Positions 11,996 to 63,156 of a DNA stretch of 64,000 nucleotides are shown here, piece after piece; positions within the stretch are counted from its first letter, which is position 1; each line of letters starts with the position of its first letter. A program made the translations under genes and the position numbers. Source of the DNA: Bdellovibrio sp. SKB1291214 (GTDB lineage: Bacteria; Bdellovibrionota; Bdellovibrionia; Bdellovibrionales; Bdellovibrionaceae); contig NZ_CP106855.1 in NCBI RefSeq assembly GCF_002209355.2, positions 1,550,001-1,614,000 of the forward strand, read 5' to 3'. The notes under the pieces are model-generated. The model saw nothing but the letters and a program-made list of their open reading frames with translations, was not told the DNA's origin and did not search any database.

Positions 11996-14032
11996 TTAAT
12001 CCACGTTCGGAACGCCTACATACTTAGCCAACCAGTAAGCATAAAGGTAATCCACACCGGCGTTCTCAGAACCGCGGCCGTGGCTATCCTTGTAACCAAA
12101 GGCCGTGTCCTTCCAAACGAAGTTAGAGGTAAATGCCTGATGTTCGAATACAGGGTAGTTATAAAGACCCTGATAGAAGTATTCATTAGACGGTTGGGGG
12201 CTCTTTAATGACTTCCAGAACAGACGTGGAATCGGAGAAATACACCAATCCGGTCTTTGTGAATGATCGATCGAAACATCTAAGTTAGGGCGAGGGTACG
12301 GAATCTCCCTAATACCCCAAGCGGCATTATTCAAAGCCGACATGAACTTGATTTCGCTGCTTTCTTTTCGGAAATTATCCCCACGTGTTCCTTGAGAATA
12401 TGCAAAGCCAAAAGCTACCATCGTCAGTAAATGACGTTGAGCCGGACTGTATGTCACCCAAGAATCCATTAAACGTTCGCGCAGACGATCGCGAATTTTT
12501 GTTTCACCCAATCGCTGAGCAATCATAATATCGGTAATATCACCCACGAGGCCAAGGTTCACGCCACTCCAATCAGCACTTCCATGCCAATAGAATGTCG
12601 TATCCATACTATAGCTCGATGGTTTCCAACGAAGTTTCGTGTAAGCATTTTGATACTTATCTCTTAGTTTTTCATCTTTGTTGATAAGAGCTGCCAAACC
12701 CAAGCTTGGAGCCTGGTTTTGTGACTTCTCATCATAGATTCTTAATTTTAGCAGACGACGAGACTTGTCACGAAGGTGAGACCAAATCTCCTGATCATTT
12801 TCGGGAATCACCATGCTTGCCCACATCATCGAATGAGTCAGACCTTTAAACATGTCGTTGTTACCGCCTTCAAGCCACAACATGTTTGAATAAATACCTT
12901 TACCTTGATGCCACTTGTTTGGAATCGGCTCGCCCGGACGATATGGCATAAGCGTACGCGCAAACTCTGCTGGGTCCTCGGTGATATCCATCAAAATAAA
13001 CATCGCTCTTAAAGATTTTCTAACATTCGCAAGGGCTTCCGGATCTTTGGTATTCATGTAGCGCATCGCCTGCGAGCCAATGTACATTCCTGTCCACAAT
13101 GCAGAGTCACCATCATAACGATACGCGATCAATTTACCGTTCGCATCCACGTCAGCTTTAGAAACCATACCGATTTCATTAATGTGGTGAGTGACTGTAT
13201 TCTTATCATAGCTCGCGGCTTTTTCTTTCAAAGTCGGAGAGTACGCGTTCCTTTTTACTGATGCCTCTGTGATGCTGATATTGTCTGTGATTTTATTGAC
13301 GACCCTGATGATATCTTTATTTGCTTGATAAAAGTTGTAGTCCGTTGGGTCAAAAACGATGAACGGGCGCTCTTCTTTAAATTCTTTTCGATTCTTAAAT
13401 GATTGAACGTAGGGATCTTTGCCGTAGCCGATATCTCTTTTGAAGATATTGATAACTTTTTGAACAGCCCAAGGAACATCCGGCCCACGAGCATCAACGT
13501 TTGTTCGCAGGTTTATCCACAACGGCTTTGCTTCTAAATTACGACGAGTCGTGATCCACTCTGTATAATTGGAAAATTTTTTATCCGAAAACTGAGAGGC
13601 AAGTCCCTTATCAGTCGCAATAAAGCGAGTTACAACGGTAATTGGATTTGTGAAATCAGATGAGTTTCTTTGATCCGTGCCAAGCTTCGTAATGAAATCC
13701 CCTTGGCGCAAATCATAACTCATCACCAACGTGTCACCAGCGGCGACGGCTTTTCCAGTCCAAACCTCTTGAACTTTCAGACCATCGTAAAAATAATTAA
13801 TGTAAGTGACGATGCGTATAGCATCATAGGTGCCATCACTAGATTTTCTTAACTCAAGCTCGCCATTATAAGGCCCACGAGTAGAACTAGTTCCTTGTAA
13901 AAACCAAATCCCCTCCATAGCCCCCGAAGACTGAAGCGACGCAATGTCTCGCGGAATCTGTTTTTCTTGAGTAGCGCAAGAAGTGAAAAGCGTGAGCGAC
14001 AAAAATAAAAAGAGGAATGAAAAGTACTTCAT
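11996..14032 (-). CDS. Large lipoprotein of unknown function
   Basis: 678 residues from ATG 14032, preceded by GGAG and AGAGGG; an ATG eight codons upstream lacks the signal-peptide start. The N-terminus MKYFSFLFLFLSLTLFTSCA is a lipoprotein signal with lipobox Phe-Thr-Ser-Cys. Residues 25-150 look beta-rich; the middle and end are helix-rich with many Trp and Tyr, possibly an alpha/alpha toroid as in glycoside hydrolases or lyases, but I cannot name a family. It is 60 bp downstream of a secreted papain-like protease on the same strand, so the two may work together on the envelope. Confidence 0.6.
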   Translation of the reverse strand: MKYFSFLFLFLSLTLFTSCATQEKQIPRDIASLQSSGAMEGIWFLQGTSSTRGPYNGELELRKSSDGTYDAIRIVTYINYFYDGLKVQEVWTGKAVAAGDTLVMSYDLRQGDFITKLGTDQRNSSDFTNPITVVTRFIATDKGLASQFSDKKFSNYTEWITTRRNLEAKPLWINLRTNVDARGPDVPWAVQKVINIFKRDIGYGKDPYVQSFKNRKEFKEERPFIVFDPTDYNFYQANKDIIRVVNKITDNISITEASVKRNAYSPTLKEKAASYDKNTVTHHINEIGMVSKADVDANGKLIAYRYDGDSALWTGMYIGSQAMRYMNTKDPEALANVRKSLRAMFILMDITEDPAEFARTLMPYRPGEPIPNKWHQGKGIYSNMLWLEGGNNDMFKGLTHSMMWASMVIPENDQEIWSHLRDKSRRLLKLRIYDEKSQNQAPSLGLAALINKDEKLRDKYQNAYTKLRWKPSSYSMDTTFYWHGSADWSGVNLGLVGDITDIMIAQRLGETKIRDRLRERLMDSWVTYSPAQRHLLTMVAFGFAYSQGTRGDNFRKESSEIKFMSALNNAAWGIREIPYPRPNLDVSIDHSQRPDWCISPIPRLFWKSLKSPQPSNEYFYQGLYNYPVFEHQAFTSNFVWKDTAFGYKDSHGRGSENAGVDYLYAYWLAKYVGVPNVD

Positions 14033-25531: not shown

Positions 25532-25733
25532 AGATGCCTAATAATACTGGGATTTTTGCCAAACAACCAAGTCTCACCGAATCCCACGTCTCACTCTGTG
25601 CTTTGGTCGGGAAACTGGTTCCAAAGTTGAACTGCAAACCCATATTGGAATTACCTCTAGTTCCGATTTGAGTGCGAGTCCCCCGTAAGGCCGCGCTCAG
25701 TTCAAACTGATTTGAATTGAGGAATGTCTCAAA

Positions 25734-25750
25734 TTGGCACAGACCTTGCT
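25734..25750 (+). promoter_or_regulatory. Sigma-54 (-24/-12) promoter
   Basis: TTGGCAC, five bases, TTGCT: 25734-25750 differs from YTGGCACGRNNNTTGCW at one position. The predicted start, about 12 bases on, is near 25761, leaving a 30-base leader with GGAG before the GTG at 25791. Confidence 0.65.
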
Positions 25751-25790
25751 CTAGGGAAAAGTGTCTTTGATTATTTGGGAGAAAAACTCT

Positions 25791-26189
25791 GTGATTAAGA
25801 ATGCTTTGATTGCCGTATACATCTTACTAGTCCTTGCGATTTCCGCAGTGGCTCGTGCAGGTGTACTACCAAATCAAGCAACTCAAGGTGACGAAGTCAT
25901 CGGTTCAGAATCTTCCAGCTATAATTACGAGACTCGTGTAGGTGAAGTTGCAGTTTTGGCTGACGGAACTTTTGTTTTAGTTCTTGATGCACAAAACACA
26001 ATCCTTCTTCAATCGAACTTCGACCTTACACCTTTTGTTGGTTCTAAAGTTATGATTAGCGGTATCGAACAAGAGCATCAGCTTGCTCCCGCTTATGGAA
26101 ATCACTCCGTGGATCCCCTCCCTGGAATGGTTTCTGGGAATAAGACGATTGTATTCGTAGTGTTCGGTATCTCTGAGGTTTCTCAGTAA
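25791..26189 (+). CDS. Small exported protein, possibly OB-fold
   Basis: 132 residues from GTG 25791, preceded by TGGGAG at about 10 bases. The upstream GTG at 25761 would coincide with the predicted transcription start and is rejected. A signal peptide ending AVARAG is followed by a beta-rich domain: RVGEVAVLADGTFVLVLD, then NTILLQSN and VMISGIEQ, resembling small OB-fold exported proteins of the YgiW/YdeI kind, but this is a resemblance only. The promoter is sigma-54 type and the 3' UTR holds two tandem terminator hairpins with identical C-rich loops, so the mRNA may also be the source of a small RNA. Confidence 0.6.
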   Translation: MIKNALIAVYILLVLAISAVARAGVLPNQATQGDEVIGSESSSYNYETRVGEVAVLADGTFVLVLDAQNTILLQSNFDLTPFVGSKVMISGIEQEHQLAPAYGNHSVDPLPGMVSGNKTIVFVVFGISEVSQ

Positions 26190-26196
26190 TCGTAAA

Positions 26197-26240
26197 GGTC
26201 TCAGCCCCAATCCCCTCCGTGGGCTGAGATCATTTTTTTT
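26197..26240 (+). terminator. Terminator hairpin 1 with C-rich loop
   Basis: An 11-bp stem (GGTCTCAGCCC / GGGCTGAGATC, one G-T pair) encloses CAATCCCCTCCGT and is followed by eight T. The loop resembles an anti-Shine-Dalgarno sequence. Confidence 0.85.
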
Positions 26241-26250
26241 AAGTCCTAAC

Positions 26251-26290
26251 AGGGTCAGCATAAATCCCCTCCTTGCTGGCCCTTTTTTTT
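26251..26290 (+). terminator. Terminator hairpin 2 with C-rich loop
   Basis: AGGGTCAGC / GCTGGCCCT form a 9-bp stem (one G-T pair) around ATAAATCCCCTCCTT, followed by a T8 run. Second copy of the AATCCCCTCC loop in 65 bp. Confidence 0.8.
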
Positions 26291-26675
26291 GCCTTTTTTC
26301 TGCAACTAGAGCCGCTAGTTCGAAGATTCATCGAAATCAATTTGTTCTACCCGGCGCTGCCGTCGGCACGTCATCGTGACTCATCGGCGCCGGCTTTGCC
26401 GGTTCGCGCCATCGTGGCGCCAACGGAGGCCTCTCTTCGGAGGTACATCCCGCTTTCCACTCGAAGAATTTTGCTTGGTTTGTTGAGACATGTTCAAACA
26501 AACGGTCAGATGGGGAGATTTATTAGATCGGGGGAGTCCGAAAAAATGCGCTTCTGGGATTTTTTGATATCTGATTTTCTGTTTCATGAACTAGAGTTAT
26601 GTCGCATCCAGTAACCGGAGCGGGTGTGAAAGATTGGGTTTGCTTCCTCGACAATCGCGGGAGCAGTCGAAAATA
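26291..26675. other. Intergenic region with a row of GC-rich hairpins
   Basis: No convincing gene. Between 26350 and 26445 several short inverted repeats follow one another: CACG/CGTG at 26367-26378, CCGGC/GCCGG at 26390-26402, GCGCCA/TGGCGC at 26406-26420, and CCTC/GAGG at 26430-26443. The open frames here are short and lack family features or ribosome-binding sites. It may be a structured RNA or an intergenic repeat element. Confidence 0.4.
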
Positions 26676-63041: not shown

Positions 63042-63156
63042 GGAAAACCCCTCCAATGGCGCTCTTTAAACACCCAATTTGGAACCAGGGCAATATAAAA
63101 AATTCGATGATATCTATAAGATTACGTTATGGTAAAAGTGACAGAGTCTGAAATAA

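Follow-up and report, generated by a model that had tools for sequence, protein, structure and literature searches.

Repeated anti-Shine-Dalgarno loops behind a sigma-54 promoter point to a putative regulatory RNA family in Bdellovibrio and its relatives

Two consecutive terminator hairpins with unrelated stems and one common loop raise the question of whether the loop merely belongs to the terminators, or is displayed by an RNA that acts on other transcripts. Such a pair had been pointed out in an earlier note on the stretch of 64,000 nucleotides from Bdellovibrio sp. SKB1291214 analyzed here (hereafter, the window), and both hairpins were indeed found on the forward strand. The hairpin of terminator 1, H1 (26197-26231), carries CCCCTCC in its loop at 26212-26218 and is followed by a U-run at 26233-26240, and the hairpin of terminator 2, H2 (26251-26283), carries the same motif at 26266-26272, with a U-run at 26283-26290; AATCCCCTCC is present in both loops and the stems differ. 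The 105-nt stretch comprising H1 and H2 folds at -36.9 kcal/mol, as compared to -19.3 ± 2.7 kcal/mol for shuffled sequences (z = -6.4). A CCTCC loop was detected in 2 of the 29 terminator-like hairpins of the window, namely H1 and H2, and in none of the other 27. Sites of AATCCCCTCC in the genome (3.68 Mb) number five in all, and that at 13907, located inside another gene, was taken as chance.

Four occurrences of ATCCCCTCC were counted in the window, where 0.4 would be expected, and three of the four are at the hairpin locus. The third copy at the locus, at 26113-26121, lies inside the upstream ORF, within a further hairpin, H0 (26102-26130, forward strand), whose loop contains CCCCTCC at 26115-26121 and whose 7-bp helix shows compensatory changes. 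Hence, the two loops described previously are real, but a third one had been overlooked. In many species, GGA and UCC within the loops of H0 and H2 could form a 3-bp mini-stem, which would leave UCC partly hidden.

The ORF that harbors H0 (25791-26189, forward strand; 132 aa, GTG start) is preceded by a GGGAG ribosome binding site at 25777-25781 and encodes a signal-peptide-like helix followed by a small beta domain. Searches of Pfam and PDB revealed no relative of the protein, only weak chance matches being retrieved, and the AlphaFold model, showing a helix and a small beta domain, is of low confidence (pLDDT 70, pTM 0.45). Among relatives, the length of the ORF ranges from about 39 to 231 aa, and only the signal-peptide-like start (YILVVLAISAVARA-like) is kept. 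In two genera (L076 and L090), this start forms part of a fusion with another, longer protein (approximately 230 aa), with the CCCCTCC hairpins being kept. A relative of the Bdellovibrionaceae protein is also encoded by a sequence titled as a Streptomyces griseus MAG (L226, CALQIT020000091.1), likely representing a mislabelled bin or contamination.

Conservation within the genus was evaluated in 24 sampled Bdellovibrio genomes, in which the locus was located by a search with the protein of the ORF; it was found in all 24, and in five more genera (29 loci). In every one of the 24 genomes, CCCCTCC is present in three copies, which occupy corresponding positions in the ORF, H1 and H2. The two arms of H0 change together (GAAAC/GTTTC, GACTC/GAGTC, GATTC/GAATC, GATATT/AATATC), pairing being maintained in 94.6% of cells, versus 74.4% in shuffled and 26-51% in slid controls, and cells with double changes amount to 21, versus 7.7 in shuffles. 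Similarly, pairing in H2 reaches 98.7%, with double, compensatory changes in six of its nine pairs, while H1 is nearly invariant within the genus and therefore offers little covariation signal. Moreover, the Leu codon of the motif in the ORF is CTC in 24 of 24 genomes, as opposed to 15 of the 325 Leu codons (4.6%) at other positions of these ORFs, and the Pro codon is CCC in 24 of 24 genomes, versus 33% elsewhere. Judging from this comparison of genomes, such a codon and pairing pattern is selection on RNA inside the coding region. It had been proposed that loops varying under kept stems would refute the small RNA; the opposite is observed, as the loops are invariant and the stems of H0 and H2 compensate, in the 24 genomes of the genus and in many other genera.

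A covariance model, a kind of check that had also been suggested beforehand, was used to search beyond the genus; only matches with the motif were retained, the E-values being rough and the kinship labels those assigned by the tool. Copies were found throughout the family, and a further four families of the order also have them (five families in total), with CCCCTCC hairpin loops, one to three per copy, in about 25 genera (a tally obtained by reading the matches). CCCCTCC is the motif in nearly all copies and the only segment invariant over all loops, the stems in other genera being mostly unrelated to those of Bdellovibrio. The loops are retained where the ORF has only 39-59 aa and ends before H0, and H0 is non-coding in many genera, since the ORF stops before it. 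In three loci (L032, L081 and L085), the second hairpin has the loop and lacks a U-run, which shows that the loop does not simply result from termination. One genus (g6) has two compact hairpins left, and no matching sigma-54 element was detected there by the pattern used. In family f8 (L098, L105 and L114), no ORF was found between the sigma-54 promoter and the RNA: the promoter leads directly to an RNA of approximately 100 nt, with a terminator bearing a GATCCCCTCC loop at its end. Survival of the loops where the protein has shrunk or gone points to an undescribed regulatory RNA family, as far as comparing genomes allows such an inference.

The stand-alone RNAs of family f8 also have a second conserved hairpin, TTTAAATCGCCCCACGATTTAAA, and, close to their 5' end, a CCCCTC that is not paired. 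Weak matches at the order level (e.g., L089, L094, L097, L101, L107 and L108) were dropped for not having CCCTCC. Outside the order, the covariance-model search of the phylum retrieved no convincing copy, the weak matches being tRNAs and terminators, or missing the exact motif. As for paralogues in the same genome, 14 weak model matches were obtained besides the locus, and the three that were read (L110, L115 and L116) proved to be simple terminators in which the loop is absent.

Regarding expression, a putative sigma-54 promoter with -24/-12 boxes (TGGCAC-AGACC-TTGCT) is located at 25735-25750 on the forward strand, and it is conserved in all 29 loci of the protein search and in most distant loci; TGGCAC-N5-TTGCT lies upstream of nearly all copies. 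The sigma-54-type control previously assigned to the upstream gene is thus supported at the sequence level. The dyad GGTTCCAaagTtGAACt, at 25617-25633 on the same strand, is presumably an enhancer site for activator binding. Dyads resembling GGTTCCA-N3-TGGAACC were observed in most loci, some 75-120 bases ahead of the -24 box (115-120 bases in the 24 Bdellovibrio genomes), a position that fits what is expected for a sigma-54 activator. The two features that would identify a sigma-54-dependent RNA, i.e., a -24/-12 element (GG-N10-GC) and an activator dyad, are therefore present, albeit by sequence only. The activator gene could not be identified via the dyad, of which the genome has few sites. 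GGTTCCA dyads were also noticed near genes for trypsin-like and subtilisin-like secreted proteases in two relatives (L252 and L253, at 1500 in each), without an evident sigma-54 promoter, and may be there by chance. Between the dyad and a divergent TPR gene, CTGTGCTTTRGTC is conserved in the genus (25560-25610 of the window), perhaps as the promoter of the TPR gene.

What could the loops pair with? The 16S rRNA 3' end GGATCACCTCCTTT was found in the genome, which makes the CCUCC within CCCCUCC an anti-Shine-Dalgarno core. The earlier note had suggested that the loops pair with GGAGGGG ribosome binding sites and that the leader of a protease gene could be one such target. GGAGGGG is indeed present at about 63.05 kb (63048-63054, reverse strand), as the ribosome binding site of a gene for a secreted trypsin-like protease with a lipoprotein signal, and a 7-bp duplex is predicted there, of -15.8 kcal/mol with the loop of H1 or H2 and -20.8 kcal/mol with that of H0. 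The duplex predicted with the GGGAG site of the ORF itself has only 4-5 bp and is much weaker (-6.8 to -9.7 kcal/mol). Genomes contain about 17-25 GGAGGGG-N3-10-ATG sites, versus 7-12 for the reversed control pattern. In the genome of the window, exported products, as called by a simple rule, are encoded by 9 of the 12 testable genes with GGAGGGG, versus 11 of the 30 genes whose site, AGGAGGW, is of equal strength (p = 0.03); by eye, the former become 10 of 12, with the addition of L119. Pooled over three genomes (together with HD100 and G013), the figures are 18/34 and 11/30, and the difference is not significant (p = 0.15). When two genomes are compared, a lipoprotein, a flagellar rod protein and a subtilisin-like protease are among the orthologues preceded by GGAGGGG in both, with no control for conservation. 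Genes for exported proteins, including the 63.0 kb protease, are the likely target class, but this is suggestive only, as the enrichment is significant in one genome only. Furthermore, a PF17209 profile search found no Hfq in the genome, control genomes being positive, so that the RNA does not qualify as an Hfq-dependent sRNA.

Based on these results, we consider it probable that the locus represents a new family of Hfq-independent, sigma-54-driven RNAs that block G-rich Shine-Dalgarno sites (GGAGGGG) by means of repeated loops, with repression and targets being inferred, while the loops, the pairing of H0 and H2, the promoter and the variability of the ORF are shown by comparison of sequences. 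A transcript dependent on sigma-54 and its activator would have an RNA as its conserved product, in which each of H0, H1 and H2 would display CCCCUCC in a form that is unpaired or almost unpaired, with H1 and H2 also serving, one after the other, as terminators. The RNA, either as a whole or as a fragment cleaved from its 3' part, would pair by any of its loops with GGAGGGG and similar sites and, once paired, would compete with the 30S subunit, resulting in repression of the mRNA without Hfq. Several loops would offer several seats per molecule, and stopping at H1 or H2 would decide between two and three of them. Repression in trans of mRNAs that have G-rich Shine-Dalgarno sites is favored because the 7-bp pairing with GGAGGGG outperforms that with the RNA's own ribosome binding site, because no Hfq was found, and because the mycobacterial 6C/B11 RNAs, described below, provide a precedent.

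It is also conceivable, even if we hold it to be decidedly unlikely, that the repeated loops are a protein decoy, mimicking the 16S 3' end (GGAUCACCUCC versus GGAUCCCCUCC) and titrating a protein that binds the rRNA tail or C-rich RNA, much as RsmZ or CrcZ do. Identical repeated loops under sigma-54 control would suit such a role, as would the GGAUC resembling the 16S tail in the loops of H0 and H2 in most species. Nevertheless, H1 lacks GGAU, as does H2 in the window's own clade, CCCCUCC alone is invariant across all loops, as fits pairing with GGAGGGG, and no protein candidate was found. We regard as very unlikely that the loops act only in cis, controlling their own mRNA (e.g., via the GGGAG site) or setting terminator efficiency, without any trans-acting RNA: even though the predicted duplex with that site and the terminator nature of H1 and H2 would allow it, this pairing is far weaker than that with GGAGGGG targets, and the loops persist in family f8, where no ORF to regulate was found, as well as where H1 is not a terminator. 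Finally, that H1 and H2 are ordinary tandem terminators with the same loop by recent duplication or chance is scarcely credible and already contradicted, since, in spite of their U-runs and their location after the stop codon, the stems are unrelated, the loops remain invariant over 24 species and many genera despite stem changes, a third copy sits in the ORF under codon constraint, and no other terminator-like hairpin of the window has such a loop.

A trans-acting repressor of this kind would have counterparts in other bacteria. In the alpha-r14/cuckoo RNAs, a group taken here to include CcsR1-4 (Rhodobacter) and NfeR1 (Sinorhizobium), the stems of the three hairpins diverge while the loop, CCUCCUCCC, is the same in each (PMC10746234), and CcsR1-4 derive from the 3' UTR of the mRNA for a small protein (PMC10746234, PMC8625941). 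The analogy with this architecture, drawn before, is a good one, as H0, H1 and H2 also combine identical anti-Shine-Dalgarno loops with differing stems; membership of the family, however, is not supported. The motif is CCCCUCC rather than CCUCCUCCC, the alphaproteobacterial promoters depend on RpoD or RpoH instead of sigma-54, and CcsR is tied to a DUF1127 small protein, which is absent here, the Bdellovibrio ORF having no Pfam match. In addition, Rfam gave no gathering-level match at the locus, and no alpha-r14/cuckoo/CcsR family was among the matches with E <= 10. The best sub-threshold Rfam match was the 6C RNA (RF01066; 22.2 bits, E 0.57), not reaching the gathering level of 47 bits. The C-rich loops of 6C/B11 pair with and block ribosome binding sites, either of two loops being sufficient, independently of chaperones (PMC10470900). 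Hairpins with C-rich loops are common to 6C/B11 and the Bdellovibrio RNA, but those of 6C/B11 contain C-runs rather than CCCCUCC, are not inside an ORF, and belong to actinobacteria, another phylum. The best reading is that the Bdellovibrio RNA is convergent with both groups and a member of neither.

FlmE (CJnc230) from Campylobacter jejuni is an sRNA from a sigma-54-dependent transcript, where it lies at the 3' end of a protein-coding gene, and it has a putative anti-Shine-Dalgarno motif (PMC11187230). Its motif, however, is a single unpaired CCUU lying between two stem-loops, its host gene is flgE, and its sequence is unrelated. Within the genus, the attack-phase sRNAs and merRNA of B. bacteriovorus HD100 are the only sRNAs reported, among the papers found (PMC3627812); they correspond to other loci, none being at 67.65-67.85 kb. 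The HD100 copy of the locus (67651-67845, minus strand) is absent from that 2013 RNA-seq list of eight attack-phase sRNAs, obtained in a screen limited to attack-phase, intergenic RNAs. A c-di-GMP riboswitch was found in the HD100 genome at the published merRNA coordinates.

As far as the searched literature and Rfam show, this RNA family, conserved through the Bdellovibrio order, is undescribed, and it would be hosted by organisms with no Hfq found and in which little is known about post-transcriptional regulation. The multi-loop anti-Shine-Dalgarno design of alphaproteobacteria and actinobacteria would recur here with an unrelated sequence, and a regulatory RNA hairpin would be kept within a coding region while the protein varies between about 230 and 40 aa or is lost altogether. 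A more specific version, which we put forward as a speculation and think rather unlikely, is an RNA that, driven by sigma-54, restrains the translation of exported proteins in predatory bacteria; its two or three anti-Shine-Dalgarno loops would be interchangeable, one of them both coding and structural, and a signal-peptide-like mini-protein made beside it might sense, or feed back on, the state of export. If true, this RNA would represent an Hfq-free counterpart of the enterobacterial envelope-stress sRNAs.

After the locus, at 26350-26430 of the window, there is a GC-rich palindromic stretch (CGGCACGTCATCGTGACTCATCGGCGCCGGCTTTGCCGG and variants), also observed downstream of H2 in L007, L008, L010 and L012, which resembles a repeated extragenic palindromic element.
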